Source: Mesostigma viride
Lineage: Eukaryota > Streptophyta > Mesostigmatophyceae > Mesostigmatales > Mesostigmataceae
Direction: 5' to 3'
Length of the DNA: 64,000 nt
NCBI GenBank assembly: GCA_009746045.1
Contig: RPFO01000667.1
Location: 7,217,046-7,281,045 of the forward strand
Part shown: positions 8,611 to 53,397 of the stretch, in pieces
Layout: each line of letters opens with the position of its first letter
Position numbering within the stretch: position 1 is the first letter of the stretch
The notes under the pieces: model-generated
Database searches by the model: none
What the model was told of the DNA's origin: nothing
What the model saw: the letters and a program-made list of their open reading frames with translations, nothing else
Position numbers and translations under genes: made by a program

Positions 8611-11600
8611 TTATACCGCCACTGGTTCTGTCGCCAGCACAGGCCTTAGAGCCACTGGCTCTGCTGCTGCCATTGTCACCGCACCCGACACTGCCGCTGT
8701 GGGTTCCGACGCTGCCTGCGTGGACTCCGAAACAACCGGATTGGAGCCCGATACTGATTCCGCCAACGCGGGCTCTGATGGGCTACTCTTGCCACTCGAC
8801 ACTGGCTCCGCTGCGTCTAACAAATTCAACGCGGCATCCTCTGCCGAGACCATACTGGCATCCGTCCCCGTTGCCTCTGCGGGCTGGACCAGTACCGCCA
8901 CTGCCTCCTGATCGGCCGCCGGCTGTGGTTGGGCCCGCCCCACATGCAGCACATGCTCCATCGCAGCCAGTGACGCGCCTGGCCTGCCCACGGGGCCGTA
9001 CTCGTACGAGAACCCCATGAAGTCGTCGTGGTGGAGCGGGTTGGCCAGCACGGCCGCGTCGCAGGGGGAGTCCCTCGCCAGCTGGCGCGTGTACGCCTCG
9101 TCAAAGTTTCGGAAACACCGCTCGCTCTCGACCGCCGGCAGGAACGGGGGGCTCATCTGCCGGCTCTCGACCTGGGCCCACTTGATCCCCTGGAAGAAGG
9201 GGTGCCGAAGGATCTCGTCCCCCGCGAGCCGCTTCGCAGGGTCCTTGTTTAATAACCCCTTCAGCAGGGATGCCACACGGGGGGACAGGAACGGCGGCAG
9301 CTTGACCTTGTCCTTGACGATGCGTGTCTGGAGCTTTGAGCGGTCCTTGGTCGCAAACGGGGTCGAACCGGTGAGCATCTCAAACAGCAGGATGCCGACC
9401 GACCACCAGTCGGCGGGCTTGGAGTGGCCCTTCCCGAGGACGATCTCGGGGGCCATGTACTCGACGGTACCTGCCATCGAGTTGGTCGCGCGGCCCTCCG
9501 CCATCTGCGGCTTTGCGAGGCCGAAATCGGTGATTTTCACGTGGCCCTCGTGGTCCAGCAGGATGTTCTCCGGCTTGAGGTCGCTGTGATTGTGAGGGGC
9601 GTGAGCACAACCATTACGGCTGATTGTTAGGAGAATGCAAGCCATCCAGGATGTTCTCGGTTTTCCGGTGACTGTGTTCATGAGGGTGAAAATTTGTTGT
9701 GTGGTTAGCGACGGGATTTCTGTGAGTTAATTGCTTTACCTTCATTTGCGTTACTTTATTTTGGCATTGGTAGCATGGGTAGAAGCATAAGCATTAGATA
9801 GGTTCTAATTCTCGGGCTTAAGGCCCATCTTCATTTCCCTGAGGACTTTGGCTCACGTGACGCAGTAACGTGTATATTAATCAAGTCAAGGCCGCTGTGG
9901 TCATAAGGGGTGTAAAACACATACTACCTGGCGGCGTCATCGATAACAAGTCGGGGTGATCAGACGTGGAATGCACGCCAGTCGCCACACAAGACGTTCT
10001 CCGGTTTCAGATCGCAGCGATTGCGACCATGGGGGTGTGGCTACTGAACATGGAAGCTGGCTATGGGATGACAGGATCCGCTTAGGTAGGCATAAGATTA
10101 TTATCATTCGATACATGATAATGATCGATCCTTGCTGACAGAATTGGAAGTGATGGCTTGGAGCATGGCTTGGGAAAACAAGCTATGAGGGGCATGGCTT
10201 GGGAAAACAAGCTATGAGGGTCTCTGGAAAGCATGGCTTGGAAAAACAAGCTATGAGGGTCTTGAGAGGTTTCGTGGTTCCAGATGGGTGCATGTCGTTA
10301 TCACGTTTGATGCAGTTCATGGAAACTGAAAGCAGCAGTAAATGCATGGAGCAGTGCTGTGCCAGCTGTCCATTCCCGTGTGTGAGGGAAAGTAAGAAAA
10401 AGCCTCACAATGGGCTTCCATGATGCTCATACATCCCGCAAGGATGCATCGGGTCACACAAACCTGTAGGCAATAATTCGGGGCAGCGGTGCCACTGTCG
10501 TGGATGTGTTCCCACCTACAGGTAGTAGATACAGTTTTTCTAACCAAAAGGATGGGGTGAGACCCCCTTCTTTCCCTCCCCCCCTGCCCCCCCAGCTCCC
10601 GCCCCAACTAAAAACCAAAACTAACCAGGGAAGAAATACAACATCCAACACACAAGCCAACACCCACCGGTGGATGATGTCGAGCGAGTGCAGGTGCTGC
10701 ACCGCCAGCACGATCTCCGACATATAGAAGCGCGCCAGCTCCTCGCTAAACGTCCCCTGCTGGTACAGCTGGAAGAACAAGTGGCCCCCGTTGATGAAGT
10801 CCAGCACCAGGTACAGCTTGGAGGGCGACTGGAATGAGTAGCGGAGCGTCACGATGTAGGGGTGGCGGACCGCTTTAAGGATGTCGCGCTCTGCGCGCAT
10901 GTAGCTGGTCTGGCGGCGCTCCAGGATGCGGTCCTTGCGCATGACCTTCATTGCGTAGACCTGGGCGTGAGGGATGTGGATGTGGCAGTAGTGGTAGTGG
11001 TGGTGGTGGTGGTGGTGGTGGTGGTGGTGGTGGTGGTGGTGGTGGTGGTGGTGGTGGTGGTGGTGGTGGTGGTGGTGGTGGTGGTGGTGGTGGTGGTGGT
11101 GGTGGTGGTGGTAGTGCTAGTGGTAGTGGTAGTGGTAGTAGTAGTAGTAGTGGGGAGAAGAGAGGCACGCAGTGAGCGTATGAAGGCGGAAAGTGGTGAG
11201 GATGCGGTCCTTGCGCACCACCTTGATTGCGTAGACCAGCGCGGAAGGCATTAGTTAATAGTTAGTAGTCAATTAACAACACGCAAGCGGAATCCGCAGG
11301 TGGGGAAGGCATAAGGAGGTGGCAGTTTGGGGATGGGAGGGGGGAGTGGGCGTGACCGTGTGTTTGCACAGGACCTTCCTTCATCGTGTGGACTTGCATG
11401 TGGGGGTTGGGTGGTAGCGGTGAGGGTGGTGGGTGGGGTGGGGGTGGTGATAGTGATCATGGGTAGTTGTCGTGTGGGTAGGAATGGGGGGTGGGGCATG
11501 TCCAGTGCATGATGAGAGGGAGGAAAGCGGAGGGGAGAGAGATAGCGCTTGGGGGGTTGGGGTTGGGGAGGAAGGGGCACGAATGGGTGTACACTCCTGC

Positions 11601-12757
11601 AGGTATAGACCTGGTTGCGCATAGGCTTCGAAGTTCAGGGAACTGCGTGCGTGAGTTCAGGCCAAGGAGAGAGATGGCTTGGGGCAGTGGGACGGGACCG
11701 AGCATACGGGGGCGGAGGGCAAAAGAGATATGCCGGGGAGGCGAAGAAAAAAGTTTAAGTGGTAAGGAAACACTACAGTAGGGGGCGGGGAAGAAATGGC
11801 ATAAGACACAGTTTTCAAGTTGAACGGTGTGATCTCCTAACAATGGTGAAAGCTAAGCTCCATCTTTAGATCGATAAAGCAAAAGCGACGGTCTCCACTT
11901 CTCGCCTCCTCTCACCTGCTGGTTTGTGCGGTCCACCACGGCAAACACCTTGCCAAAAGCGCCCTGTCCCACCACGCGCAGCAGCTCAAAGTCGTCCGTG
12001 GTCAGCTTGCGACGGGGTGGGTGAGCAGGAGCCGCCGCCACCGCAGCAGAAGGAGGGGCAGGACCAGCGGCAGTAAGGCCAGCAGCAGCAGCATCTTCAC
12101 CCTGGGGAAGGGGAGTAGCAGCGCCATCGTTATTATTACTACTGCTGGTGCCGTCACATGGGCCAGCTACTGCCCATGCTACTGCCTGAGGGTCCTCTTT
12201 CGTCGCCGCATGAGCGTCCTTGCTCCCCTCGCTCGGGCCGCGACTCCTCACGCCCTCGTGGCTGGGTTCTCTATCAGCGGCTGCCACGTGATGGGTGCCC
12301 GACGCTGGGTCACTCGAGTGGGCCGTCGAGTGGTCACCCAGTTCCCTCCCTCCCATAATCCCGTTGGTCACGTCCGCATTACAAGATGCACTGCCGTCCT
12401 GTTGGCTCTGCCCGTCCGCCACGGGTAAAAACGCGGTTGTATTACGGGCGGAAGGCAGGGTGGCCGATAGCGCCCCCCTGACAGCACTGGCATACGCCCC
12501 CTTCTTACTGGCATCTGAACCCCTGTTGCCCGCATTGCCCCCAGAGGCCCCATTGGGCCCCTTGCCCCCATTGGCCTGGTCCCCACTCTCGCTGCCCTCA
12601 TCTCCATCCTCCTCCTCCACCGCCTCAGCGCCGGCCTCTTGCAGCTCTTGCAGCGCGTCCTGGTGGGGGGAAAGGGGGGGTTGATGATGTGTTTGTGGGT
12701 GATCAAGTTCATGATTGTGTGGTGTGGCGACGGTGTTTCAGCTCTTGCTGCGCGTCC

Positions 12758-12794
<37 letters not shown>

Positions 12795-13856
12795 ATTAAG
12801 CGTGTTTGTATGCATGCGTGGTGGTGGTCCAGGGTTGCTGGTGTATGTGCTTGTGGGGGGTGAGCAAGGGTTTGTGTGCGTGTGCGTGTGTACACATGTA
12901 ACTCTCGCAACGTGTCCTGGGGTGGTTGGTTGGTAATGTGCTTGTGGGGATGATCAATGGGTGAGCGTGTATGTCATGGCGGTGATGGGGTAGCACAGTA
13001 CGATAGGGAGTAAGGGTCATCCTATCCTCTATGGTCGTGATGACGCCAGTTTGCCAGGAAAGACATATAACTCGCCAGGCAAGAAAAGTCATTCTCAGGC
13101 ATGACTACTTACACTTCAAGAAATCCAAGACTCACGCCACAGCCACAATGGGCGTCCTAGGAAGGGGACGAAATAAGGCAGGAGGTGGTCAAACCATTTA
13201 ACTTTTCTTGCTTGGCATCCTTAGCTTTTTTATGGTAGTTGTACGGCACTGTCGGCTTTATTTTGCTGATATATACGACAGCAAAATGCTGGCAATCTGC
13301 CACAAGTATCCTCAATAGGTTAAGCTGCTTCCCAATCCTTTATCCTGGTAGGACTGCTTACCTATAGCTTCAACAAACCCGCATATATTTCGCTTCATCA
13401 AGCGACAAAGACGCTTGAGGCACGTCACGATTCACGTCACGACACACGTCACGTCAGCATATCACTCACCAGCACTTGTGCGTTTCCCATTGTTTCCTCT
13501 GCGAAACGCAAGCCACGAAGCTCCGCCAGCATTCCTGGTTTCTCGAATGAGGGCGTCGGACCTACGAAAGAATGCCCTCGTTCCTTCAGGCTGGCGGCTC
13601 CAAGAAAACGAGCGACCGAGGCACTAACCTCTGAACCGCTTCTTTCCGACGCTGATAGTTCTGAAATATTCCGCTCCTCCGTGCCATTTTGATCTGCTTT
13701 GTCCCCTTCGTCATCTCTATGTTTGTGATTAGCACCGTCAAACAATTCATTGAAGTCCAGCTCCAAATCTTCATCCTCGTCGTCTTCAATGGCGGCTAGA
13801 GTCTTCGTCACAGACAGACGAGCCTCCGGCGATAGGCCGCGGCGGTGCGAGGCCAT
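8611..13856 (-). CDS. S6K: AGC-family protein kinase, S6 kinase type
   Basis: Four exons on the minus strand: 13856-13470, 12659-11916, 10960-10668 and 9583-8611. All junctions are GT-AG and keep frame, giving 798 residues. The kinase domain is complete: glycine loop G-Q-G-A-F-G-K-V (360-367), lysine in Y-A-M-K (382), alpha-C Glu 401, H-R-D 474-476 (the Arg codon is split by the last intron), D-F-G 494-496, and A-P-E 519-521. Ser510 in S-M-A-G-T sits at the PDK1 site. The C-terminal extension has the hydrophobic motif F-M-G-F-S-Y (663-668), typical of S6K/AKT targets of TOR. The N-terminus has a candidate TOS-like F-N-E-L-F (35-39) and an H-S-F-V-G-P block as in plant S6Ks. Exon 2 is an acidic, Ala/Gly-rich linker. 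Family role: phosphorylates ribosomal protein S6 downstream of TOR. The start is the first ATG of a long open exon. The tail after 670 is Ala/Ser/Glu-rich, unlike any S6K I recall. Confidence 0.93.
9651..9690 (-). repeat. Decoy copy of kinase exon 4 start (intron 3)
   Basis: Read on the minus strand, this stretch resembles the true exon-4 boundary (9583/9584), with the boundary equivalent at 9671/9672. It still reads CACAGTCACCGG then GAGAACATCCTGG, against CACAGCGACCTC...GAGAACATCCTGC in the real exon. It lies 88 bp upstream of the true acceptor and is not needed for the protein. Confidence 0.6.
9985..10030 (-). repeat. Second decoy copy of kinase exon 4 start
   Basis: On the minus strand this reads (C)GATCTGAAACCGGAGAAC, the codons for D-L-K-P-E-N, then GTCTTG. 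It is a second degraded copy of the catalytic-loop exon start inside intron 3. The acceptor AG is changed (CTG instead of CAG at the boundary 10014/10015). Confidence 0.75.
10150..10262. repeat. Short tandem repeat in kinase intron 3
   Basis: Three copies of GCATGGCTTGGGAAAACAAG followed by CTATGAGGG, at about 10165, 10192 and 10231; the last spacing is longer because of an extra TCTCTGGAAA. Confidence 0.85.
10987..11152. repeat. (GGT)n / (ACC)n microsatellite in kinase intron 2
   Basis: About 165 bp of GGT triplets with GTA/GTAGTG variants at both edges. On the coding (minus) strand it is (ACC)n, so C-rich, and it ends about 25 bp upstream of the acceptor of exon 3. Confidence 0.97.
11196..11240 (-). 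repeat. Decoy copy of kinase exon 3 start (intron 2)
   Basis: On the minus strand it reads GTCTACGCAATCAAGGTG then GTGCGCAAGGACCGCATCCT, coding V-Y-A-I-K-V-V-R-K-D-R-I-L, nearly the same as the true exon start V-Y-A-M-K-V-M-R-K-D-R-I-L at 10960. The acceptor AG has become TG, so it should not splice. The (ACC)n array lies between the decoy and the real exon. Confidence 0.9.
12640..12960 (-). repeat. Triplicated 3' splice-site region, kinase intron 1
   Basis: Boundaries equivalent to the true exon-2 start (12659/12660) recur at 12756/12757 and 12916/12917. The three exon-start copies code D-A-L-Q-E-L, D-A-Q-Q-E-L and D-T-L-R-E-L. The outermost copy keeps a full CAG acceptor, the middle one has AAG. 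The 40-50 bp of intron before the first and third copies also align (a TTGATCA...CACAA...CACAT...CAACC pattern). A 34-bp G run at 12760-12793 (C on the coding strand) abuts the middle copy. Confidence 0.9.
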
Positions 13857-14675: not shown

Positions 14676-20130
<5,455 letters not shown>

Positions 20131-20681: not shown

Positions 20682-20737
20682 CGTATTAATTAATTAATTA
20701 ATTAATTAATTAATTAATTAATTAATTAATTAATTAA
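20682..20737. repeat. (TTAA)n tract at the left end of the TIR element
   Basis: Uninterrupted TTAATTAA repeats of about 55 bp directly abut the left terminal inverted repeat; a shorter version (22560-22580) abuts the right one. Either the element inserted into TTAA-rich DNA, or the tract grew from a TTAA target duplication. Confidence 0.8.
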
Positions 20738-22560
20738 ACTCGTGCTCCCGTTGGGGAGTCACGGAGCACCGAAGTGCTTTTAATCCCTGTGTGTGCACTA
20801 CAGGAGAAAGGGCAGAGACCCCCAGTCTCCTTCATGCCAGAGGCATGCCACAGCTGCATTCGGGCGCGCTAGCTAAGCGGACACGCTAACGATCCGGCAG
20901 TCTGTGGGTGCAATAAGACCCATGTGAGCATATCATAGCAAGGAGCGTGGGCAAGTAATCTGAACATAGCCAGGGCGTAGCATGGCTGTACTAGGACTAG
21001 GCTAAGGCTATGGCTGGTTGTGTACCGTGCGTTGGCGGCACGTGACTAGGTGTGTTGGCACAGCTAGGCAAACATTCTAGGCATGGCTGCCTTAGCGGCA
21101 GTGACGCCAATGGTTACATGCAAGCTAGGGCTATTGCTATTCTAGCCCGCTGGGGGCGTCCACATCTAGTGGTTGATCATCAGGTCCCCGCCCCTCCAGT
21201 ACACCTTGGGCTTCTGGGGGTCCTGCTTATGGCGGAGGTACTCCGGCCACAGGTCGCGTCGCTGCTGTTGCTGAGCGGGGGTGAGGCCCGTTATCCAGCG
21301 TCCAGGTGAGGTCGTGCAACCGCTTGCGACGAGAGAGGAACCGCTGCTTATCCTCAGGGGAGAGGAAGGTGAGCAGGACTGGTGGGGGAGCCGCCTTGTC
21401 CCGTGAGTGGGGAAGGCGGTGGCACCCACGCAGTTCTACCTCACCTACCAGGTCCATGAGGGTAAGAAGCTGGTTCTTGAGCTCGCCAGCAAGGGAGGTT
21501 GACGTCTCACCTGGCTTCTGGGGGAAGCGACGTAGCACCACTCCGGGCACTCGCGGGAGCGCGATCGGTGACCTCCCGTTGCTGGGCCTGGCGGTGGTCC
21601 TCCAGCTCCTGGAGCTTCGTGGCGATGGCGTCGGTGGTGGAGGCGGTCGCTGACCACAGCAGGTCCGCGTACGGAGAGCGGCGGGAGGTCACCAGCATCC
21701 TGCCGGGGTGGCTGGGAGGCAATGGTGGCCGTCTGCTCCGCTAGCTTTGGGACCTGTGTGGCCAGGGCCTCGGTGTGGGCGGTGATGGCCTCAAGCTTCT
21801 TCATGAGCACGCCGGCCGCACTTGCCCTCCACCTGGTTAAGGCGAGAGACAAGTGCAGCATGCGTTTCCGAAGCCTGCGCCGCGGTGTGTAGCGCCGTGA
21901 ACTGTGGTTGTAGCTTGTGGACGACCTTGGTTTCCACGTTGGAGACCCGGGCTTCGACCGTGTTGAGCGTGGTGTTCAGCTAGGTCATCTTCTCGGCCAG
22001 CGGCCAGGTCACGTGCTCCTCCAGCACTGCGCGGATGTCATCCTTGCAGAGCCCTGGAGGAAGCCGATGGGGCTGCCGGCTGTGCGGGGGCTGGGGCGTT
22101 GAGTGCGTTGAGTGCTTTGCTGATTTCGCCGAAGCTGCGCTGGTAGTAGCTGCAGGTCAAGATAACCAGGCGTTGGCGGGATTCTTCAAAGGTGTAGAGC
22201 CAGGACGTGTTGCGGTAGTCGATAGCCTTCCCCCCTCTCCTTACCTAGTCACGTGCACCGCAAACGCACGGTACACAACCAGCCATAGCCCGATAGCTTA
22301 GTCCTTGTACAGCCATGCTACGTCCTGGCTTCGATCAGATTAGTTGCCCACGCTCCTTGTTATGATATGCTCACACGGGTCTTATTGCACCCACAGTATG
22401 CCGGATCGTTAGCGTGTCCGTTTAGCTAGCGCGCCCGAATGCAGCTGTGGCATGCCTTTGGCATGAAGGAGACTGGGGGTCTCTGCCCTTTCTCCTGTTG
22501 TGCACACACAGGGATTAAAAGCACTTCGGTGCTCCGTGACTCCCCAACGGGAGCACGTGT
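20738..22560. mobile_element. 1.8-kb element with about 315-bp terminal inverted repeats
   Basis: Left repeat 20738-21050 and right repeat 22244-22560 are inverted copies with scattered differences; both ends read CGTGCTCCCGTTGGGGAGTC from outside in. Each arm contains a tRNA-like stretch (A-box-like TAGCTAAGCGG at about 20870, inverted near 22440). The core holds a broken minus-strand gene (21166-21861). Flanks are TTAA tracts, which would fit a TTAA target, but the arms are far longer than those of typical piggyBac elements. No transposase is recognised, so it is probably non-autonomous. Confidence 0.85.
21166..21861 (-). pseudogene. L1-ORF1-like protein remnant inside the TIR element
   Basis: On the minus strand an N-terminal part predicts coiled coil (T-K-L-Q-E-L-E-D-H-R-Q-A-Q-Q and neighbours, in shifting frames). 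The C-terminal part reads L-T-F-L-S-P-E-D-K-Q-R-F-L-S-R-R, then L-T-P-A-Q-Q-Q-Q-R-R-D-L-W-P, and ends K-P-K-V-Y-W-R-G-G-D-L-M-I-N-H. That order (phasing helix, L-T-P-x-Q, W-R-G-D-x-L) recalls the RRM/C-terminal region of L1-type ORF1 proteins. A one-base shift at about 21298 splits the frame, and further shifts lie upstream. This assignment is from memory of the motif pattern. Confidence 0.5.
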
Positions 22561-22569
22561 TTTAATTAA

Positions 22570-22887
22570 TTAATTAATTCCCCCCTCTCGCGACCACAAA
22601 GAGCTTCCGCTCCTGTGTGAGGAACTGGAGAACTTCGACGACTTCCTGCGGCGACAGCGCTTCTGCCACTCGAGGAGGGAGAACCGTTGGTCGCCGGGCA
22701 AGAATAGGCTCCATTTGTGGCGATCGTGGCATGGTTTCTTCTTGGGCTCAGGCGAGGCGCTTGGCGATGGGTCTGCTGGCGGTGGGTTGGCGAGCCCAGG
22801 CGGCTGGGCAAGAACGATGGCGAGAGGGTTGGGCTGGGAGCCGGTAAGCTCCTTTTCTAAACCCCGTTTTGCTTTAGGGGTCGTCAT
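22570..22887 (-). other. Open frame next to the TIR element, unknown
   Basis: A 105-codon minus-strand frame, Pro/Ser/Lys-rich (M-T-T-P-K-A-K-R-G at its start), ending in the TTAA tract at the element's right edge. No domain is recognised. It could be the start of a gene interrupted by the element, or chance. Confidence 0.2.
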
Positions 22888-23558: not shown

Positions 23559-24336
23559 TGTAACAAGCAAAAATGACTTTGTTGTTACATCCTTTGTTTT
23601 GTGAATGTTTGGCTTTTATTCGAGGACTTTTGGATCAGTATTGAGAAAGTTATGAGGTTTCTAAGACGACGGTACTTGGAGCTGATACTTTGTCAGCCAA
23701 CTGATAGGAACCCTCATTGGTCGTGGCCTGATCCACGTAGGGTTGTAGTTTGTTGGCTGATACTACTGATAGGAGCCCTCATTGGTCGTGGCCTGATCCA
23801 CGTGGGGTTGTAGTTTGTTAGTTGGTACTATTGAGTCTTAAATGCTCCTTTGGGACTTCAGTGCTCACGACAGATTTAGGATCTCATGGAAAGATTCTGC
23901 CAGGCTGTGTGTGGTGTTGTTCTGTTTTGTGTGACTAGGATGGATACGAAGATCTTGTATAGGATTCCATGGTTCTGATTGGTTCTCTTCAGGCTAAGGT
24001 TGGAGCAAGCTCGACAAGCACGTCGATATCAAGGACGTGGGGTCGCCATTGTTGCTACGTTGGTTTTGATTCACCATGGTATAATAAAGCTTGGCTTTGT
24101 TGTCCAATCCATAAGAGCCCCTTGGCTATAGACGTCCTTCAGTTCCACAGAGGTCGTCTATACACGAGCTTGTCTTTGTGTCTACAAGGGGTGTGATTCC
24201 CTAAATCACGTGCTGTGGAATTTCCATCTCAACGTTGCTCGGATACTTGAAGTTCTGCAACTCAGAAAGCAACCCAGGTAAAAGATCTTTCATATTGGAC
24301 TGTGGATGATGATGATGATCATTTTTAGTCGTTACA
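23559..24336 (+). repeat. 5' LTR
   Basis: 778 bp, begins TGTAACAAGC and ends CGTTACA (TG...CA). Compared with the 3' LTR I find one substitution (TCTATACACG against TCTACACACG) and two single-base length differences near 24263 and 24280. Confidence 0.97.
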
Positions 24337-24354
24337 TTGGTATCGGAGGATCTC
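24337..24354 (+). promoter_or_regulatory. Primer-binding site
   Basis: TTGGTATCGGAGGATC directly follows the 5' LTR and resembles the sequence complementary to the 3' end of initiator Met-tRNA (TGGTATCAGAGC) used by many plant and fungal gypsy elements, with one mismatch. Confidence 0.75.
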
Positions 24355-24984
24355 TACTTTGGTGTTTCTCTTGAAGTCGCAACCTTCCGGGTAGTACAAC
24401 GTTGATCAGATGTCTGTCATCCGAGAAGATTCATAGAGTTGCGGAAAACTTACGGTGTTACAGACTGAGACACATCCTGATGTGACTGTCTTGCTCTGTA
24501 ACACTAGAAGTCAGCCGTAACCGTTGTCTCTACTAGGCAGACGATCGCGACTCCATGTGGAAGTATGAGTAGTTCGAAGACACAATCACCTTTACCCCCT
24601 ACTAATCAAGGTTTGGAGATCCGTCATCATCTCTGGAACCCATTGCTAGGGAAGGTGCTGAGACAACTGCTCGTACTCCACGGCGTCAACTTGATTTCAA
24701 CCGTACTTCTATGTCTGAAGTGAGGCGGCCCTCGTTGTCCATAGGGCCCAAGTTTTCCGTCATTGCATCTGGTCTCCAACCAGGCGAACCATCGCTGACA
24801 GGCGTGGGTCGAGGAGCGTCACTGTCGCCCAGGATTCCAAGCGCGCGAACGAGTCCTGTGCGAGTGCATCATCTTCATTTCTTTTCCCGCTAAATACCAC
24901 GCCTGGAAGAGACGGGACCAGACTTGCAGCGGATCGCCTCTCAGCAGCTAAAATCAGATTATACACGATGAACAACACGCAGCG

Positions 24985-26292
24985 ATGTATAGAAAGATGG
25001 TGGAGGAGGTGGAACAGGATGTGGGAAGACTTCGTCAGAGAATTGAGGAGGAGGAGGCGGCCATGCGTGACATGGTTGCTGGATTGGGGAGAGAGGCTCC
25101 TCGGTTGGGTGACGGAAGGGTTTTACCTATAGTACCGCAGTTACTACGAGGAATGAGACGCAGGATAGCGATAGGCAGGATCCAGCGCAGACGACCTCGG
25201 TCACCTTCACCACCCCCGCCAGCGACGTCCCCGTGACCGTCACTATACCACCGCATCAAGGTTCCGCCCCGCCATTTCCAAAAATCGAATCCGTAGACAA
25301 GCTGTCGCTCACCAATCTAACCCACCGCAGTTTCGATCATTTCTCTACTCGATTCCAGGATGTGTTCGCTATCCACTTTGCTAACTACGGCAAACGAGCG
25401 GAAGAACGACTTTCCCTGGACATCCAGAAGAAGATGGTTCGACAGCGAATGAGCGACAGTGCAGCCGACAGGTTTGATGAGTTTTTACGATCCTCAGCAG
25501 GTAATACTTGCAAGGATTTGCCATCTCTCATGCTTTCATTTCGACGTTTTCTCCTTCCCCAGGACCAGCTCCGTCTGGACCGGGACGCGTTGGCCAACTG
25601 TACTCAGTCCGGCCTGACACTACCACAATACGTAGAGACGTTTACCAACCTGAGGGCCAAAATCCCCCAGTGCTCTGATTCTGAAGCTCTTCACAGGTTT
25701 CTGCATGGGCTTCCCCTCAAGTCAGGGTGGATATTGACAAGCATTTCTCCCCTTTCGACTATGTCGAGTGGAAGTGGGATACTGTGCTGTCTTATGCCCT
25801 CACGCTGTGCCGTGTCCCTGACTTTTCCCTCAAGTGGGAGCCTGCTGCAGGCAACCAGGCGCCTGCTGTTAAGAAGCCCCTGAACCAGCTGAACGCTGTG
25901 ATGGAGGAGCTCAGTGCCATGGAGCAGTCCAAAGGAGCCTGTTTCACGTGTGGCCAGCTGGGACACTTTGCACGGGATTGCCCCAAGCGAGACCAGTTCC
26001 CAGCGACACCAAGGGTCCTCAGGGGGTTCTTCCATTCACCAGACCATCCACCTTCCCTCCTGGGGTGAGCCAGAGCGACCACAGGGCACAGCCTGGGTTT
26101 AGACCCAACTTCCAGGCTTCGGGCAAGGGACCTTCCAGCCCAAGGGATTCACAGGCAAGACAGGCGTCGGATGGTCAACGCCCTGTGGCACCTCCTAGCA
26201 GAGGAGGAGGAGGGAGAAGGGGAGGCAGACGGCATAGAGGATCAGCAGGTGCAGCCTTCAGTGGGGAGCTCGTCTTCAGATCATCCTCCTGA
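24985..26292 (+). pseudogene. gag: gag region of the retrotransposon, frameshifted
   Basis: A coiled-coil segment (24985-25236: V-E-Q-D-V-G-R-L-R-Q-R-I-E-E-E-E), then a capsid-like segment (25233-25725, including L-D-I-Q-K-K-M-V and L-H-R-F-L-H-G-L-P), then a nucleocapsid with a CCHC knuckle C-F-T-C-G-Q-L-G-H-F-A-R-D-C (25950-25991), and a basic Gly/Arg tail. Frame changes occur near 25235, 25725 and between 25990 and 26060, and a stop ends the frame at 26292. No intact gag is present. Confidence 0.85.
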
Positions 26293-26307
26293 GCTGCCAA
26301 AAAACTA

Positions 26308-26817
26308 GTGGAGCCCCCAGGACTACGTCCAGCGGTGGAGTTAACTGGTTTGCCTGCTGTGCATGTCCGTCCTGTGAACAACTTGTCTGCCTCTGATTCC
26401 ACCACCCCATTGGGCCCTCCTATTCCCAGTCAACTCTTGAAGTTCCAGGCTAGGCTGTTGAACGTGCCAGTCCCTTTGGCTCAGCCTTTATGTCTCTTCA
26501 TGATTGACTCAGGTGCAGGAAGTAACTACATTTCCACTTCCTTGGTGCAGGAGCTGCATCTACCAGTGCTCCCCCACCCTGTGCCTGTTAAGGTCCAATA
26601 TTCTGATGGTAGGCAGAGTAACTCACCTGGCTACGTGCAACTGCTTTTTCAAGTGTGCTCACGTCAAACCTTGTCTGTCACAGCAGATGTCATTCCACTC
26701 ACTGCTGCTGATGTGATTTGGGGATGCCATGGTTGGAGTCTGCTAATCCTGCCATCTTGTGGTCTGAGAAGGTGGTGCAGTTTCAGGATGGGTCAGTGTG
26801 GGACGCCACCACAGTGA
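26308..26817 (+). pseudogene. Retroviral-type aspartic protease domain
   Basis: Contains the catalytic motif L-F-M-I-D-S-G-A-G-S-N-Y-I (D-S-G-A at about 26504-26515), followed by V-x-x-x-x-L-P...V-I-W-G, the usual second half of a retropepsin. The frame changes near 26718, where M-G-M-P-W-L continues the domain in another frame. It would cleave the Gag-Pol polyprotein. Confidence 0.85.
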
Positions 26818-27208
26818 TTAAGGGGGGAGAAAGACCAGTCACAGAGTGCTGTTCTACTAATGAGGCTGTCAATGATGGGAGAGGGGTTGCAGGTGCCAAG
26901 GAGGACGTCAAGGTGCCTTCACTGGAAGAGAAACGTGCTGCCTTACTTAAGCACGTATGGTCTGCCAATCACACCTTGTCTTACCTGGCTACTTACCCAG
27001 TGGAACACGTCTTTCTCTTACAGTTGGTTCCTAACTCACCCTCTGATGAGACTCATGGCCACACGGTGAATGCTGTGAACCCAGTACCAGCTGTCACAGA
27101 GGAGGAGCAGAAGCTGCATGATGCCCTTTTGGACAGGTTTGCTGCCATTTTTGAGGACAAAATGCCACAGTACCCCCTGAAGGGCCAATCACTCATGTCA
27201 TCAAGCTT

Positions 27209-35489: not shown

Positions 35490-38400
35490 GCTTTTGACAG
35501 ATCTGTAAAGTTAGGGCCCGAAAAATACAGATGGCTAGGCGTATATGCAGATCTGTTTTTTTAATACAGATCTGTACGTAAACTCCGACGTAATGCCTTT
35601 ACGTCTTCGGGGGTCGAAGTGCAGGCCGTGCTCAGTACCTGGAAGCAAAATTCAGCCATGGCTACGAAAGCTAATAGAGGAATGTCAGCCGTATGACCTG
35701 CACACGAGGGTAATTAAGAAATCAAGCCGAAGTTAATCCTGCATCTGAGCGAGCAGAATAATTGCAAACACAACAGCAATTGTGCGACAGACCAAACAAT
35801 ATCGCCGCGTGCACTAGGCTCTGTATTCTGGTCACACCCAGATGCATTGGCTACATTGGATTAGGCGCCTTAACGAACTCAGTCGAGGGAAAACGCGAGG
35901 AGCGCCATCTAAGCAGTTGCTTGTCATGTCTATACGCCCGGGCATCTCATGATCTGTCTACCATGCACGCATTTTCCTTGGATGAATCAAACAGCTTTTG
36001 ACATTTTAATGGCGACAATGAAGTCCGGCCACGACAGTATAGCGCTGCTCAGAGCTTCGTTGTCGAGAAAGGTTTAAGAGGTGCTTTTTCCGGGCAGATA
36101 ATTTAACTCTGCCTAGATCCCGGTAGCTTTCAGCACGCGCATATTGCTTGAGGTAAGCGAGCCACGACGCCTGCAGGTGCTCCTGCCGAGGTGGAGACCT
36201 CCGAGAGCACGTGGATTAGGCTCATGCGTCAAAGCAGCATCGACCTTCATTCTCCTGGTGTGGAAGGTCACTTTTCAGGATTAACATATCTGAATGTTGA
36301 TTGCCTGTTCATTTTCCGTCAATTGAGCAGCGATTGAAACCATGAGCCATGCAAGTGTAAGGTGCAGAATTCAGTTGATGAACCCAAGCAGGTAATGTGC
36401 AAAATAGATGAACCCAAGTAATATGTGCAGATGTTTCGTCCCACTGGCTGTGTGCTATTGCATGAACCGTGTAGGCCCTTGGCGTGTACTCACTTGCTGC
36501 AACCGTGCCCACAGCTGCTTGTCAATACACGCGGCAGGCACAACGACTTTTGCCGCGAGGTGAAACATTTAACTCCCCCACGCCTTGCATTTTTCACTCT
36601 TTCTTTTCCCTATCCATCCTACCCCCCAGCACACACACACGCCCACATACATACACATGCACATAAATGTTCACACACACATGCACACACGCACGCATAC
36701 ACACATGCACACATACACACATGCACACACGCACACATGCACACATGCACACACGCACACACGCACACATACACACATGCACACATACACACATGCACAC
36801 ACGCACACATGCACACACGCACACATGCACACATACACACATGCACACACGCACACATGCACACATGCACACATGCACACACGCACGCATACACACATGC
36901 ACACATACACACATGCACACACGCACGCATACACACATGCACACATACACACATGCACACACGCACACATGTACACACGCACACACGCACACACGCACAC
37001 ACGCACACACGCACACACGCACACACGCACACACGCACACACGCACACACGCACACACGCACACACGCACACACGCACACACGCACACACGCACACACGC
37101 ACACTCGCACACTCGCACACACGCACACACGCACGCACACACGCACACACGCATACACGCACACACGCACACACATGCACACTGTGACATACACATGTAT
37201 GCACACAATATCACACACATGCACACACCCACGTGCGCACATGCACGCTAACACATGCATGCACACAAACATGTGCACACACCCACGAGCACACGTGCAC
37301 ATGCATACAAACGCACACAAACACAGGCCGACTTGCACACATGCGCCACACACATCAATCCATCACCAATAAACGGGTTGCTTGGACCCAACGACCTTCT
37401 TACTCGCCTGTCCACCCAATGTTCTGCCCATCCTCCCGCCTGCCCGCCTACAAGTCTGCCACCCGCCTATCTGCCCACCCATCTGTCAACCTGCCTGCCT
37501 GCCTGCTTGTGTGCATGCCTGCGGGCCTGCATGTGCACCTGCGCCCATGCACCTATTATGCCCCCATGGCACATACATGCAGCCTAGCTAGTTGAGTGTC
37601 TCTAGGCACGCGCACATGGGTGGCTACATGGGCATTTGCCTGTGTCTTAGGCTGGGGCGTTGGGCTGATTAGTTCAAGAGTGGGCGGGAAGACGGTGGTA
37701 TAATTGGGTGGGTAGGGACGGAGTGGATGGATGATTGGGGGGGTTGGATGCGGGTGGGACTCAAGTTAGTGTTAAGTCCAATGTTGCCTATAGCATCAAC
37801 AAAAATAAGCGAGAAAGCAGCCTAAATTCAAGGAGCCTACTTCTTGTAACATGTGCCAAACTGCAATTAATGGTTGCAGGCTCACAAGCTGCCAGATTCA
37901 TAACGCACATGGAATGAATTGCATGGTTACAGGACAAGCGTGTGGTTGGAAATCTTACAATGCCTGGCGACGTCTCTTTCATGTGCCCACTGAGAACCGC
38001 TGTTCTTCGACACAAGAAGGCTTTGGCAAGCAACGAGCTTCGGCCAGGGCCTTCATTTCAAGGAACCGTGTGTGAAGCAATAACTCAGGATTTACAAACA
38101 GAAACTATACCTAACTTTGCGACCTTCATGCAGTATGTCATGTGCATGGCTATGTAGTATGTGCCAACAATCACAACGAAAACGTGCGAAATTGCAAACA
38201 TTGCCATGGAAGGGCAGGAGCCACGCACGCAGCAAATTAAAACGGTTCGTGAACCAGATTGTCGGGCATAAAGACAGCAAAGTCTGGCCAGCAATAATGC
38301 AGTGCGATGCGAGACAAACTCGGTAAATATGGGCAGGCAGGCGCAGCTCGTCCTCAGCAGTGCTATCTAACGTGACGGCGCCTTATTTCCGCGTGCACGG

Positions 38401-41001: not shown

Positions 41002-44000
41002 ATGGCGTGCCCCAGATGGCATTTCATATCGGTTTGCCTTGTCCTCTTCCTTCTCCATCTACTCCCGCTTCCATGTGGCATACTTGGCCCGCAGTATTCC
41101 AGCGCTGAAACGGGGAATCCTGTATTACAATGGATAGACCACATCGCTCGCCGAGTATCATGCATATTGTCTAGCACTATCTGGTCAATGACTCACCGAA
41201 TGAGCGGGGCTGAGAAGGAGCCCTTTTTACGAGAAGATAACTCTGGAGAATGTCAAGATAGCATTTGCACGGAAAGGATTTACTTGGTTCGAAGAGGGGA
41301 CGTACAATCTGGTAAGTAGAATGATGTGGTTATGAATGTTTAGTCACATGGGATGTGCATCGTTATTCAAGCGCTCACACATAACATAACAGTTGTTGTA
41401 TGGCCGGCCTCAAAGTTCCCTATAGCACGCTCCTGCATTGAACTGCAACGGGCTTCCTGCCGCGTATACTTGGGAACTTTAATCCTTTGGGCATAGTGGA
41501 GGCTATCTGCTCCATCTCCTTACAATGGACAAACATATCCGTAATCGCCCATCAACCAAGTTCCATGACCACTTGCTGTGGCATGTTTGTCCTTTAATTG
41601 CAAGTGTTATGAACGCCCTGCAGGTTCGACCTGATCCCAACCGTCCACGAAATGATTAGGGCAATAATGAGGCAATGTCGGTGATAATATTTTCAACCGT
41701 GCTGGCTGCCATTTCCGTTTGTAATGCTTTCATGCTTCTCATTGCCCCATGCTCGCGTCAAATGCCGTCTTTAAAAAAAAAAATTAATTGCCCAATTGTG
41801 ATGCATTGGACCAATTTAGAATCTCTGCCACCTGAGGTAACCCTGCTGTATCAGATGTACTGTTATGAATCGCGGTCGCTGGCTGCACAGATCTTGTGTT
41901 CCGTTGCAGCTGCAGATTAAGGCCCGACTCCTTCCCTGAACCTTCTTCTCTGGCCGAGCCCTTCCTGTATGGCTGAAGGGGTAGACCTCTCGCGAAGCCT
42001 GGGATGCCTGCACCCTTGTTACCTTATCTGAGTTTCTCAACCGCGATAGATGGGCCATCGCCTGCTCGTGGAACTTCTTCGGCGTACACGCTGCAACTTC
42101 AACCAACGCTGCACCTTTTTCTTTTTCCCCCCCCTACTCTCCATGAACAGAACATCTTTGGCGTGCGCTTCAACAGCACGACCGTGGACAAGTTTGATGA
42201 CTACATTTGTGTGGCGTTCAGGGACTCGCGCGGCGTCATGGTGCTGAAGCGCTGGAAGGTGAGGGTTGGTGTTCTTGGGTACAGTGCTATTCTTGGGTAC
42301 ATGGCTCCCACTTCATGGTTGTGATTCTAGGTATCCTCTAGGTGCTGGAAGGTAGAGATCGACTCTGTCAGGTACATCACTGCTGCTTTCATTCTTGTTA
42401 TGAGTATACTCTTGGCGTTAGCTATTATCAAGTGCCTGCCAAGGAACCCGGGTATAGCTAAGAAAACATGCCTATTTGGAGAGGTCGCGGAGCGCTCTTG
42501 AGAACGGCATTATGGTGAAGCCCGTGAAGTCTCCTTTTCTCCTCCTAAGTTCTGTGGGGTACATACTAGACTATAGCGCCATGTTGTGAATCGTGAAAAC
42601 TAGGGATGCCTGGGGATGCTTGGATGAGTCGTCCTCCTGGAGGTAAGGTCTGCAACCTGGTCTCCTGGATACGCCTGGGTGAGTCGTCCTCCTGGAATAT
42701 CAAGCCTGTCTTCCTCAGGGCTATCATGCTATTTGTAGTGATCGCTGTATAGCACCATGTTTGTGGATGCTTGGATGTGAATTCGCATCTGGATGACCGG
42801 ACTAGCAGTCACCGGCTGATATTCAAAATGCAGGTGCAATCAATACTGGCTTTTTTCTGTTTGGCCTGTTGCATGGGTTGCTTGGTTCCAGGGTACCACG
42901 GACCCTGGCCTCCACTACTTGATGAGCCCGCTCGAAGCCAAGGTGGGTGGGTGCCTTGATATACACGAGGGCATAAAGAAAACTATAAATAGGGGTAGAA
43001 CGGTTTAAGTCTGGTTCCTCGCTTGCTTGCTGCAGGTGGGTTTCTGTTTAGGGTTGTCCGTGTTCTTTTGCTTGACCTGTGCAATAGCACGCAGCCTTTG
43101 TTAACAAAACGCCAGCTTGAACACGATGCTTTCGTGCAGTTTAAGACCAAGAAAGGCTGCGTTTGCTGCAGAAGTGATGGCAAGCAAGCAAGCTCAGGAA
43201 ATTCGTATCTGATTATGGTGCCATGCTATCACTTGTATCTCCATCGCCCTAGCCGGCATGAGCGGATGTCAGTTTACAGTCGTCCCACGGGAGGAAGCGC
43301 GTACGGGTTTCAGTAGCCTCGCCTCCCCTCTAAACACGCATCCACTCTTTGGCAGGATTATGTTAGTTTTGGAACGCTTGGCAGCACAGACCGTGACGGT
43401 CATGACTGAGCCTGTGCTATGGCATCACCACCCTGGCCCGCTATGCTTGTTGGCCTGCAGCGTAATTACAACTAACGTGGTATCTGCTAACTTTGCCGAT
43501 ATCAGCAACAGTGCCGTGCTTTGTTAGGTGGGAAACACCGCTTGGCTTGATGATTGCCCCACCCAAGTCTTTATCGCCTGTTTCCGCACCGCCTCGTGCA
43601 GGGTACCGCCATCCTCGTCCCCGGCCAGTACCGTGGTGCATATACCGTGGGGATGCATACAAAGCTGTAAGTTTAACTGCATACCATTCCTTGGCCCTAG
43701 GATAAAGTATTAGATTGTCAAATTTTCCCGTCTAAGAACGTGCGGGTCAAGGATGATGCTTGCTATTTCAATGCTTAGATTGACAACGGCAGGCTCCAGA
43801 GAATCATGAGTAGAGTGGAGCATCCACGTCTTCATTCTTGCTTTGACCCCAATCTCTGCTCCTTTCCCTGCCTGCCGCCTTTCCTTCCTCCTTCCTTGGC
43901 CAGTCCCTGCTTTTTCTTCTCCCCTCAACCACTGTTCTCACCACGGGGGCTGCACGTGCTCTAAAAGAATATTTCCCCGTCTCACCCGTTTTCTCTCCTA

Positions 44001-44092
44001 TATACTCGAAATCGTGAAAATGCTAGATGTTTTCTGGGATATACTTCAGCCGCTTGTGATGTATGCAACCATCGTCATTCTAATATCTTCTC

Positions 44093-44398
44093 ATTTCTTC
44101 TCATGCCTTCTAACATCCTCTAATGTCTTTTAACGTCTTCTAACGCCTTCTAACGCCTTCTAACGCCTTCTAACGCCTTCCAACGTCTTCTAACGCCTTC
44201 TAACCTCTTCTAACCTCTTCTAACGTCTTGTAACGACTTCTGACGCCTTCTAACGCCTTCTAACGCCTTCTAACGTCTTCTAACGCCTTCTAGCGTCTTC
44301 TAACGCCTTCTAACGCCTTCTAATGTGTTCTAACGCCTTCTAACGCCTTCTAACGTCTTCTAACGTCTTCTGATGCCTTCTAACATCTTCTAACGCCT
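44093..44398. repeat. 10-bp minisatellite in intron 4 of H/SAGC gene 2
   Basis: About 30 copies of CTTCTAACGC with variants CTTCTAACGT, CTTCTAACCT, CTTCTGATGC. Pyrimidine-rich on the coding strand. Followed at 44455-44530 by a C-rich stretch. Confidence 0.97.
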
Positions 44399-45130
44399 TA
44401 TCTCTAACGCTAATGCCTTCTATAACAAGATGTCTGGGCACACATCTTACGCCCGCCCGCCTACCCCTCCCCCCACCCACGTTCTCCCCCCCCCCCTTCC
44501 CCCACCCACCCCCACCCCCACCCACCCTGGCACCCACCCGCACATCCACACACGCGCGTGCAGATGCCCACATGACAGACACACTCCCTCCCCTATAACT
44601 TAATCAAGCTTTCTCTCATACAACCAATAAGCCCTGATCATCCCTGCCATCCCAACAGCTACGCGGCGCTGACCCAAACCAGACCCGTCAAGGTGTGGCG
44701 GGACAACAACAGGGATGCGGCATTAGACATGGGCGGCAAGGTGGATTTGGGCAAGTATAAAATCAACATTCATCGGAGCGACCCGTATTGCCAAGCCTAC
44801 GCGGTGGGCAAGCATTCTGCCGGATGCCAGGTACAAATGGCCTTGCGTTCAACAACATGGTCCGCGTTGCTGGTCAACGCATCGTGCGTTTCCTTGCCTG
44901 CGATGTTTGTTTTGAGCTCGCTGGAAGATAGTAGTATCTGAACATTTCCCTCCAGCTCTGGTATTGTCTTCAATGTATACACTTGCATATTCTGTGTTTC
45001 ATTGCTGCAATCCATCACCACTTTCCCGTTTCGCTCTCTGTCCTCTCCTGACCATTTCACTCTCCTGACCAAACTCCTCGTAATTTCTGTTTTGCCAGCT
45101 GTCCTGTTCAAAATGCCCCTTCTTCCCATC

Positions 45131-45246
45131 TAGGCTCATGGGCATGCTCATCTAGGCTCATGGGCATGCTCATCTAGGCTCATGGGCATGCTCATCTAGG
45201 CTAATAATGGGCATGCTCATCTAGGCTAATGGGCATGCTCATAGGC
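45131..45246. repeat. 22-bp tandem repeat in intron 5 of H/SAGC gene 2
   Basis: Five copies of a unit reading ATCTAGGCTCATGGGCATGC plus TC, one with an ATA insertion. A second short array (CCTTCACCYCAA-like, period 12) follows at 45323-45385. Confidence 0.93.
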
Positions 45247-45904
45247 TTCCCTACAACGTGTGCCCAAAGTATTGTATTTCTCTCGCCATGAAACAACGTG
45301 ACTTATCCCACCATGGTCTTCACCTCAACCTTCACCCCAACCTTCACCACATCCTTCACCTCATCCTTCACCCCAACGTTCACAGCATGTGACCTCTAGG
45401 ATTTTGCTGACTCTAACAGCCGTTTTGTGGGTGCCGCCCAGAATTCGCTTTGTGTATGCCCATCGCCTGTTGGTGATGGGTTGCAATCCAAGCTCGCTGT
45501 GTCCCATCTTGCACACCCATTAGGGGTAGCCCGTGGAAGCCATCCAGTATCTTTGCTTTCTCTCATCCAAGCATGTTATCAGGTAGGGGAGGAGGTTTCC
45601 CAGCCAGGATTGTGCTGTCACTGTGGCCCTCGCTATGCATTTTTGCATCCCAGTGATCAGATTGTATGTGAATGACTGCAGTGTGCACCCAGCTTTTCAG
45701 GTCATTATGACCTAGCCTAAGTTTCATGCCTTCCTTGCATGGTTGTCCTGGTGGGACCTGTATCACTGGCGCTACGCACGCCCCACTTTGCAGGTGTTTA
45801 TGCGCGTGCTGGACTTCCAGGAGTTAATGACACTCGTCCATGAGGGGTCCAAGTGGGGCAAGACCTACACATACACACTCCTCACCGAGGCAGATCTAAG
45901 CTAA

Positions 45905-50600: not shown

Positions 50601-53397
50601 TCACAAATTGCCAGTCTGCTTGCCCAACGCGGCCACCAACTTCCGCAACCTTGTAGCAACCGGGCTGACACTGCGCACGAATTTGCTTGCCGACTCCTTC
50701 TTGCCAGAAGACTTGATCACATCGGGCCGGCTCCCCTTGACCTTACGCATGGTCTCGTCCAGTGTGCTAGCGCGCGTACGCCCCGAGGTTCTAACCCGTG
50801 CTGGGGCAGCCGCCGCAGAGGACAATGGACTCGATGGCGGCGCCGTGGTCTCTTCCGCACTGTTAACAGCCGGATCTGCGGCGGCGTCAAGGAGGTCGGA
50901 CTGCCTAGACCTGGCAGCAGTCGCACGAAGACTGCTTTCCCTCACAGCTGTTGTAGAGGCGGGCTTGTCAGTGGCAGCGGTCACGCCAGCAGGCTCCGGA
51001 GGCGCAGGGCACGCGGCATCGCTGCCTTGTGCTGGCGCAGGCACTGCATTCTCCGCACCTTCAGCTGGCTGGTCGCGCTGCTTGGTGTGGATCAGGTAGT
51101 GGGCGACCGAGGGGTACCCTGCCGAGAGAGCCTGCAGGATGAGACGGGAAAGATTTTTTTACGTGCAACCCACTCGAGCAAAGCCATGAGCTTGGGGAAG
51201 ATATGGGTGTATGGTGCCAGCTAGGATGAATACGGGTGGGAAAATATACAAGTGCGGCCTTCATAAACGTTTCATGAGGGCAGTGGCAGCATGGCAGGCA
51301 ATGTTTGGTGACAGCAAGGAAGGTAAATGATTTCAGAGGAGGCATATGTAAGGAAATTCTAGCAAGTTTGTAAGGCACATCAATAGCAAGCACTCAGTTC
51401 CAGGAATAAAAAAGAAGCGGCCTTGCGCTGCCTGAGTGGGTGTCCAGATGCCATGGTTCGCCGGAATGACAATGAAAGCCAGGGTCTTAGAGGCACCCCA
51501 TGGTACCCAGATACAAGCTAGCATAAATAACAAATGACAGCTACATCAACACCTGGTATCCTCCACCATATCGGGTTCAGATTTGCCCCCTGACTCACCG
51601 TCTTGTACAGCTGTCCTGTGGCGGGCCAGCCCTTCTTCCTGGGCCGGCAGATGCTGCAGTTGCAGATGTCCCTGCACACGGGGCACACCCACGTGGCGGC
51701 TGCCAGAATCTCCTTCACGTTCTCCCCATACCTGTACACGAGGGCAACAAGATGGCAAGCCAGGAAGCCATTCGTTCATGAGGAGGCCTTTCATCTACAC
51801 AGAGCATTAACATCATTTACAAATAGCAGGGCAAACATGTTCTCCCATGCCTGCATATGAGAGAGTAGCTTCGCCAACAGCAAGGGTGCAGAAGGGAGGT
51901 CATTTTATCAACAAGGAAGCCTTTTATAATACTGCTAAAAACGCAGGGCGATCACGTGCTCCCACTATCTGTATTTTATACCTGCAAAAGTGATCCCAAA
52001 TCCACTGGGGTCACCCCTAAAAACCATTGTACATGTAGGTCAGGATGGACTCAACGCCACCACATCACGAGGGGGGATGCGACGAGGAAACAGCAAGGGG
52101 TTCACCCGCCACACCACGAGGGGGGGCATGATGAGGACGCACCAAGGGGTTTTCCAGCAAGAATGCAGTGAACGGCTTTGAAGGAAAGACTCCCCACCGC
52201 CCCTCCACACATACACCCTAACCTAAGCGACATACTGGACAGCTCACGGTTGAGACAAAGGAAGGGGGCGACATGCTGAGGGCACCCACCTCATGTAGAT
52301 GCAGTCCCCGCAGAAGCACCCCTGCAGGGAGCGGCACTCGGAGCACTCAGTGCGCAGCCCAAGTGTCTTCTGGCTGTTGTCATCGACACAAGTACGCCAG
52401 GACACGTACGGCAGGTTTAGAGACGTAGACATTTGCTTAGGGGTTGCCAAGACAACGCCAGGACAAACACACAAGGACATGCACGCCCGGACAAGCACAC
52501 CAGGAAGAGAGACACAGGCACACAGATTGGCTTAGGGCAGGCAGCCAAGAATCTATCAACCTGGTGAATCTGTAAGTGTTAGGAAAAGGAAACTAGGCCG
52601 TCCCAATGCAGCACCATGTTCGAGACATTACGACATTGTATCACGAGTAGGCGGGCCGTAATGAAAGCTTTCATTAGATAGCGCAGTAACAGGACGAAAG
52701 GGAGCGACGTCTACAAGACGAACATACCGGCATTGGTGGCACGTCTTTCCGTTCACAGGGTCGTAAATGCGCGTGCCGTCGGGGTTATACCCGTCGACCA
52801 TGAGCTCCCACTCCTCCTTGGCGTTGCCCAGCAATGCGATGTGCTCGGGGCCGTACTCTTCCGGCTGCGCGCCGCACGGGACCTGTCGTGGCTGCCATTT
52901 GGACCGGCTCGCCTCGCCCGCGAGAATCTCGCGATCGGATAGCTCAGAATATGATACCGTTGGTTGGCCTTCAAGGCTGGTAATCGAGACAAAGAAGCAA
53001 TGCCGGGATGTAAAGGCATCAGTGGACGACGATGCATGCAAGAACTACGGCATTTCAGCCTGGTTAAGATACGTGGGCATTAGCGGCAGCGGTGGAAGTG
53101 GCATGCGACGCCTGCAAAGCCCGGCCCAGATACTTACCGCCTTGATTTCCTCCGCTCAACAGAGACCGGGATATGGTTGGATACTGCTGCATTGGGACGT
53201 GGGCGTTTGGTTGCCCGCGCTGCAGCTGATAAACGCGCCGATGCCTCCTCTAGGCCCAGCTCCCGCATTCGCTGCAAATTCTCTTGCATTTTAGACTCGC
53301 GCTGCTTTTCATAGTCCGAAACGATTGTAGAGCCCATGGCCATGGTGGCTAAAACACCAAGCGCGCAGCCTCTCAGCGGTCCGTAATTGGTTGGCAC
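50601..53397 (-). CDS. CDCA7: CDCA7-family zinc-finger protein (zf-4CXXC_R1)
   Basis: Five minus-strand exons: 53397-53138, 52976-52728, 52373-52290, 51731-51599, 51131-50601; all GT-AG and in frame, 418 residues. The zinc domain runs from K-T-C-H-Q-C (164-169) through C180, C183, C189, C191, C194, R-Y-G-E-N-V (198-203), W-V-C-P-V-C (212-217) and I-C-N-C-S-I-C (220-226) to P-A-T-G-Q-L, then P-S-V-A-H-Y-L. The Arg after C-H-Q-C, the Gly before C-F-C and the Arg before Y-G-E, which I take to match the human ICF-mutation sites, are kept. The N-terminus has Y-E-K-Q-R...N-L-Q-R-M-R-E-L-G-L, as in plant relatives. Family role: CDCA7 activates the HELLS/LSH/DDM1 remodeller and supports maintenance of CpG methylation. 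The C-terminal 150 residues are Ala/Ser/Pro-rich and basic. C189 is an extra cysteine. M20 or M21 are alternative starts. Confidence 0.93.
51835..51985 (-). repeat. Two decoy copies of CDCA7 exon 4 start (intron 3)
   Basis: The true boundary is 51731/51732. Equivalents lie at 51850/51851 and 51968/51969, spaced 119 and 118 bp. Minus-strand reading: true CAG|GTATGGGGAGAACGTG, first decoy CAG|GCATGGGAGAACATG, second CAG|ATAGTGGGAGCACGTG. All keep the CAG acceptor. The intron before them also aligns (AGGCCTCCTCATGAACG against AGGCTTCCTTGTTGATA). Confidence 0.85.
52050..52155. repeat. 46-bp tandem duplication in CDCA7 intron 3
   Basis: Two adjacent copies: CACATCACGAGGGGGGATGC...CAAGGGGTT and CACACCACGAGGGGGGGCAT...CAAGGGGTT. 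Confidence 0.8.

Follow-up and report, generated by a model that had tools for sequence, protein, structure and literature searches.

Several introns of Mesostigma viride hold decayed inner copies of their own splice sites and of the exon edges beside them. The decoys described by a first-pass annotation in five introns of three genes are real, repeated and old, and the M. viride case is one of tandem duplication over exon edges at both ends, not of acceptor-based intron growth. The decoys are very probably decayed repeats of exon edge plus splice site, produced by ordinary short tandem duplications that overran the exons at either end.

The window (the whole stretch of DNA analysed) comprised 64,000 nt of M. 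viride DNA from assembly GCA_009746045.1, contig RPFO01000667.1, positions 7,217,046-7,281,045 of the forward strand. The assembly containing it spans 439.9 Mb, and the genome was published as 441.8 Mb, with introns averaging 1,142 bp and repeats making up 66% (PMC6947507). The kinase, CDCA7-like and H/SAGC proteins of the window were matched to EukProt entries labelled jgi/Mesvir1. The genes were modelled as follows.

8611..13856, minus strand: S6K/AGC-type protein kinase gene K (exons 13470-13856, 11916-12659, 10668-10960, 8611-9583)
14676..20130, plus strand: H/SAGC gene 1, S1 (exons 14676-14861, 15994-16101, 16909-16959, 17569-17633, 18602-18773, 20020-20130)
41002..45904, plus strand: H/SAGC gene 2, S2, paralogue of S1 (Mesvir1/24870; exon 1 start and frame uncertain)
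50601..53343, minus strand: CDCA7-like gene, zf-4CXXC_R1 (exons 53138-53343, 52728-52976, 52290-52373, 51599-51731, 50601-51131)

The K model was identical to Mesvir1/24868 over all 798 aa, and the CDCA7-like model matched Mesvir1/24871 at 100% identity over 400 aa. The C-terminal end of the S1 model equals all 204 aa of Mesvir1/24869 exactly, the annotated protein starting 26 aa later. A candidate 39-nt S1 exon was dropped, being present neither in Mesvir1/24869 nor in the bacterial relatives. S1 and S2 have five introns per gene. Among the 120 relatives listed of 530, the ones assigned to a named organism are all bacterial (Flavobacterium, Flavobacteriales, Fulvivirga); because the named relatives are bacterial yet the algal copies carry introns, the H/SAGC genes are probably of bacterial origin, with introns gained later. 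Other elements in the window were a young LTR retroelement insertion at 23559-33017 (780-bp ends 99.6% identical, with a reverse transcriptase/RNase H frame by Pfam), an element at 20720-22579 that resembles a DNA transposon (inverted ends of ~337 bp with 93% similarity, next to ATTA repeats), and ankyrin-repeat genes or gene pieces in tandem at 57655-59250 and 61184-62782 (89% alike, 1.6 kb).

Each acceptor query joined the final 15 nt of an intron to the first 60 nt of the exon that follows and was aligned to the remainder of that intron. The null was built from 500 random same-length genomic stretches outside the gene and its paralogue, with a p floor of 0.002. This 15+60 test, run with the corrected S1 model, replaces counts from tests on the older gene model, including an exon-only test (acceptors 5/21, donors 2/21, mid-exon 1/16). 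P values of the unit tests, the 60-nt-tail tests and the tail and flank tests are uncorrected for multiple testing. Acceptors of the window genes matched their own introns at p<=0.05 in 8/20 introns and at p<=0.01 in 5/20 (Fisher combined 5e-7); donors did so in 2/20 and 0/20 (Fisher 0.81). The best matches in kinase introns 1, 2 and 3 and in the S1 last intron reached p=0.002 each and pass Bonferroni correction for 20 introns, so that four of the five introns named earlier lie at the test floor and align better than controls. CDCA7-like intron 3 (p=0.034) fails the correction and is backed by unit-wide homology (p=0.004). The acceptor match in CDCA7-like intron 2 (p=0.010) is a gapped 49/76 alignment and was not relied on, and the gapped donor matches in S2 introns 2 and 3 (p=0.038 and 0.018) were counted and likewise not relied on. 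With a 60-nt intron part, donors matched in kinase intron 1 (0.015), S1 intron 1 (0.010) and S2 intron 2 (0.045), all uncorrected. The decoys are listed below, each positioned by its offset (nt) from the working acceptor of its own intron.

12727..12767, minus strand: -97 decoy of kinase intron 1; covers the acceptor and ~22-32 nt of exon 2, identity 35/43, p=0.002
12811..12868, minus strand: kinase intron 1 third copy at -161; mainly intron tail, p=0.015, tail test p=0.005 (uncorrected)
12897..12925, minus strand: -257 decoy of kinase intron 1; covers the acceptor and ~20 nt of exon 2
11199..11251, minus strand: -276 decoy of kinase intron 2; covers 15 nt of tail and 38 nt of exon 3, identity 45/53, AG lost, p=0.002
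11364..11406, minus strand: kinase intron 2 weaker decoy at -433; p=0.052
9647..9686, minus strand: -88 decoy of kinase intron 3; covers 15 nt of tail and 25 nt of exon 4, p=0.006
9990..10026, minus strand: -431 decoy of kinase intron 3; includes 25 nt of exon 4, AG lost, p=0.002
9889..9915, minus strand: kinase intron 3 relic at -311, putative former acceptor, opposite the working acceptor of the paralogue K'; standalone p=0.088
19911..19939, plus strand: -95 decoy of the S1 last intron; covers the acceptor and 15 nt of the final exon, 24/29, p=0.002
15222..15302, plus strand: S1 first intron old decoy at ~-759; <=57 nt of exon 2, gapped, p=0.022
45687..45715, plus strand: S2 last intron, copy at ~-93 that corresponds to the S1 decoy by alignment; standalone p=0.144
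42071..42114, plus strand: S2 first intron decoy at -79; AG lost, p=0.018
51836..51861, minus strand: -119 decoy of CDCA7-like intron 3; covers the acceptor and ~16 nt of exon 4, p=0.034, unit homology p=0.004
51952..51973, minus strand: CDCA7-like intron 3 decoy at -237; p=0.034, post-exon flank common with the -119 copy, p=0.04

The kinase intron 1 decoy at -257 gave p=0.082 with the 15+60 query versus p=0.005 with the 60-nt tail (uncorrected), and its tail p=0.002. The exon part of the decoys measures ~10-57 nt, with one splice site each, and a complete second exon with both splice sites was found among none of the window decoys. Significant window decoys sit 79-759 nt upstream of the acceptor, none of them at the donor end. 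In the S1 first intron, a (TCC)n array lies between the ~-759 decoy and the acceptor. The first-pass annotation gave no coordinates for individual decoys, but its five introns and their spacings are matched by eight of these copies: -97 and -257 in kinase intron 1, -276 in kinase intron 2, -88 and -431 in kinase intron 3, -119 and -237 in CDCA7-like intron 3, and -95 in the S1 last intron. Their reported spacing of 88-343 bp was recovered in kinase intron 3, with decoys 88 and 343 apart, and the regular case in CDCA7-like intron 3, with copies 119 and 118 apart. That copies span the acceptor and the exon start is seen, for example, in kinase intron 2, where the match includes 38 nt of exon 3. 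The protein annotation (Mesvir1/24868, 24869 and 24871) places the working acceptor at the outermost copy in each of the five introns.

Paralogues bear on the age of the decoys. The S1 last-intron decoy aligns with its S2 counterpart, which is not significant alone, and because of this alignment it seems to predate the S1/S2 duplication. The kinase paralogue K' (L004) holds a decoy at -101 (p=0.006), which aligns with the K intron 3 decoy at -431 with a score of 65 against a null maximum of 38. In the K/K' alignment the working acceptor of K' lies opposite the AG at -311 in K intron 3, and the working acceptor of K therefore seems to have moved ~311 bp downstream since the K/K' split. The number of copies in intron 3 differs between the two paralogues: they stand at -431 and -88 in K (plus the weak relic at -311), and one was found in K', at -101. 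Kinase introns 2 and 3 are present in both genes; K intron 1 is absent from K'. The last exon of K (8611-9583) is unbroken where K' has three introns (K' introns 3-5), a pattern at the 3' end that suggests cDNA-mediated loss of introns. Derivation of the kinase intron 3 exon copies from another kinase was considered on account of synonymous-looking differences and rejected, as the K' comparison points to an old common duplicate.

Persistence in paralogues (S1/S2 and K/K') could also mean that selection keeps the copies as splicing decoys or as regulated alternative acceptors. This is improbable, although the AG is kept in 11/14 decoys and the acceptor scores of CDCA7-like intron 3 -119 and S1 -95 fall in the range of real acceptors. 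Use of a decoy would shift the frame or bring a stop in 10/10 of those readable in frame, and the AG is lost in three. The aligned K and K' decoys differ at 5/25 sites (manual count from the alignment), not clearly below the 19/52 differences at four-fold sites.

Acceptor-specific intron growth, in which a feature of the 3' splice site such as a C-rich tract provokes duplication, would account for the 8/20 acceptors versus 2/20 donors in the window genes and for the C-rich tracts seen at several acceptors. That excess of acceptors is found in the window genes only, and elsewhere donors were at least as common. In the K' introns, donors matched in 3/5 (offsets +83, +101 and +49) and acceptors in 1/5. 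A further kinase sample was obtained by a Pfam kinase search, with exons predicted ab initio in 24/34 loci chosen regardless of decoys. Near-identical kinase families were left out, and only exons with a coding score >=20 and a length >=75 were kept; the exon predictor recovered 17/17 acceptors and 16/17 donors in genes that were its own training set. The sample gave donors 13/37, acceptors 5/35 and mid-exon queries 3/55 (1/27 + 2/28), and clear cases by reading were L005, L034, L046, L049 and L050. L005 has donor-side copies at +82, +184 and +247 and an acceptor copy at -98. The unrelated kinase locus L046 has donor copies at +89, +178 and +267, with a 30/30 junction match, in a fresh 89-bp array (3.8 copies, 96% matches) starting 15 nt before the predicted donor/exon end. 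A matched test was then run using matched flanks and a complexity filter, which 49 edge queries failed, and gave acceptors 9/41 versus donors 11/48 (p=1). No acceptor-specific process is indicated, because the two rates are equal in this test, and the growth mode tied to the 3' splice site that was first proposed is supported by none of the three comparisons. Such a process is thus very unlikely, and the mutational link to the C-rich tract was dropped, donors being equally affected.

Duplication over either exon edge was also compared with duplication elsewhere. Interior 75-mers were repeated in their own intron in 35/276 cases at p<=0.05, against 20/89 exon edges in the matched test (Fisher p=0.04; p=0.22 at the 0.01 cut), and an earlier unmatched run gave interiors 28/207. 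Without the window genes and K', edges gave 11/57 and interiors 18/192 (p=0.058; 0.15 at the 0.01 cut). The distinction from short tandem duplications at any intron position, on which the first-pass annotation depended, thus stands narrowly at the 0.05 cut and is lost at 0.01. The excess of edges over interiors is slight and could be chance. Mid-exon controls pooled over the older window model, the large gene below and the kinase sample gave 4/98. A large gene next to K' was tested as well.

G000:C1934:807512-844163: large multi-exon gene (L014-L017), presumably of inositol trisphosphate receptor type, going by motifs of the predicted protein

Among its 28 predicted exons, acceptors matched in 0/26, donors in 1/26 (gapped) and mid-exon queries in 0/27, and its intron interiors in 5/40 and 1/40. 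Before counting, 10 predicted exons were left out, mostly for low coding score; one scored 13.3. This gene is nearly without edge copies though some interiors match, and the rate therefore differs between genes, so that the genome-level mode originally suggested is not uniform. The flanks L006-L013 served as control background and not as test genes; by reading, they contain mainly ankyrin-like and mobile-element-like frames.

The decoys look like old tandem duplications because repeat units are common to the copies beyond the junction in CDCA7-like intron 3 and kinase introns 1 and 3. In CDCA7-like intron 3, the units that precede the -119 decoy and the acceptor align with each other (p=0.004), and tails or post-decoy flanks gave p=0.03-0.055 (uncorrected). 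In kinase intron 1, tails or post-decoy flanks are common to copies at p=0.002-0.015 for significant pairs (uncorrected), and in kinase intron 3 the post-decoy flank gave p=0.005 (uncorrected), the tails being not significant. Several decoys of one intron end at roughly the same exon position (+25 in kinase intron 3, +16/+17 in CDCA7-like intron 3), as expected of an array. Direct tandem repeats across the splice junction were found in these three introns and in L046 (predicted donor). The description of the decoys as tandem copies therefore holds for CDCA7-like intron 3 and kinase introns 1 and 3; in kinase intron 2 and the H/SAGC introns the arrangement is presumably tandem. A 20/20 direct repeat lies over the kinase stop codon (8605-8624) and again 92 bp into the 3' flank (8513-8532), and is an edge duplication of like kind at the end of the CDS. 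Large arrays in the window, three of the five in S1 introns, were as follows.

3361-4801: 37-bp x 39
15331-15968: TCC x 215
16356-16490: ACTT x 34
19041-19791: 25-bp x 30
36672-37174: 8-bp x 63

With such arrays present, tandem repeat growth is vigorous here. Short exon parts (~10-57 nt) would also be produced by dispersed re-insertion of exon-edge fragments, for instance by template switching or an RNA-templated route. For most decoys unit homology was undetected in the fixed-offset test: whole-unit global alignment was not significant for 8/9 decoys, only CDCA7-like intron 3 -119 being significant and kinase intron 1 -97 giving p=0.064. Tail tests were not significant for kinase intron 3 (both decoys), S1 last and first introns, S2 first intron and kinase intron 2 -276, nor for kinase intron 1 -97 against shuffles. 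Re-insertion is nonetheless given little probability, as regular spacing or common unit boundaries are seen in CDCA7-like intron 3, kinase introns 1 and 3, and L046. Chance similarity aided by low-complexity, GC-rich introns may explain the gapped, GC-rich and possibly compositional matches of L019, L024, L028, L030, L035 and L042, and the complexity filter lowers the kinase counts to donors 7/19 and acceptors 3/16, but as a general explanation it is most improbable given 3/55 for mid-exon queries against the same flanks, matches of 45/53 (kinase intron 2) and 30/30 (L046) far beyond controls, and decoys common to paralogues.

Under the favoured reading, overrunning tandem duplication, short duplications with offsets of ~50-430 bp, frequent in introns of this genome, would extend into exons. 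After each, a complete edge would flank the exon, and the intron would contain a truncated copy. The spliceosome would continue to splice at the copy closest to the exon, in line with exon definition of long introns; in an alternative splice site database, the sites of long introns are paired over the exon, with preference for the nearest ones (PMC9225289). Given the mean intron length of this genome and exon definition, outer copies would therefore win and truncated inner copies would be ignored. With the outer copy kept in use, the protein would be unchanged and the intron longer by one unit. Purifying selection would freeze the exonic part of the outer copy and leave the inner copy to drift, and edge duplications would therefore stay recognisable longer than intron-intron ones; the modest edge excess is what such freezing predicts. 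Arrays seem to grow in rounds. On a further and more tentative reading, straddling duplications in a genome with long introns and exon definition may be tolerated one way only, with the outer site used, the inner one left as a fossil and the working site stepping outward by one unit each time, giving a measurable, two-ended ratchet of intron growth.

Related processes are known. In human segmental duplications, internal tandem repeats at exon-intron boundaries lengthen introns, with 27 intron modifications (PMC2812944, which also cites Zhuo et al. 2007 on tandem arrays). As there, minisatellite-size repeats in M. viride span the splice junction and lengthen introns in paralogues; in M. viride, however, the arrays are mostly old and decayed, belong to a streptophyte alga and are known here from genome and annotation. 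A human precedent thus exists; for algae, no description of exon-edge copies was seen among the papers listed by the literature searches, which lacked most subscription journals. Introns gained when an exon segment carrying AGGT is duplicated in tandem in the genome have been reviewed (PMC3443670), and one intron gain by tandem duplication was noted in Drosophila (PMC2809761). That process, as outlined in the review, shares the tandem duplication of sequence around splice signals, whereas in M. viride the unit already has a splice site and an existing intron lengthens. An AGGT gain would give an intron absent in relatives whose 5' end copies the downstream exon start; this was not found for kinase introns 2 and 3, which occur in K', as K intron 1 does not, nor were significant window decoys placed at the donor end. 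Introner elements (PMC9860276) are likewise repeated sequence tied to introns; unlike them, each M. viride copy probably comes from its own exon edge, and with strong window queries the intron of origin outscored random windows. The copying of exon sequence inside an intron recalls tandem exon duplication and mutually exclusive exons, except that only a short exon piece and one splice site are copied.

Equal donor and acceptor rates remove the claim of an acceptor-specific process. Long introns are usually attributed to transposons, and exon-edge duplicates would make it possible to study what tandem duplication contributes to intron length, as well as how the spliceosome ignores intact-looking sites. 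Since the exon fixes one half of each duplicate, they would provide a record that can be dated. If the two-ended ratchet were true, introns would grow from their ends in datable layers, of which the acceptor shift of ~311 bp in kinase intron 3 would be an example.
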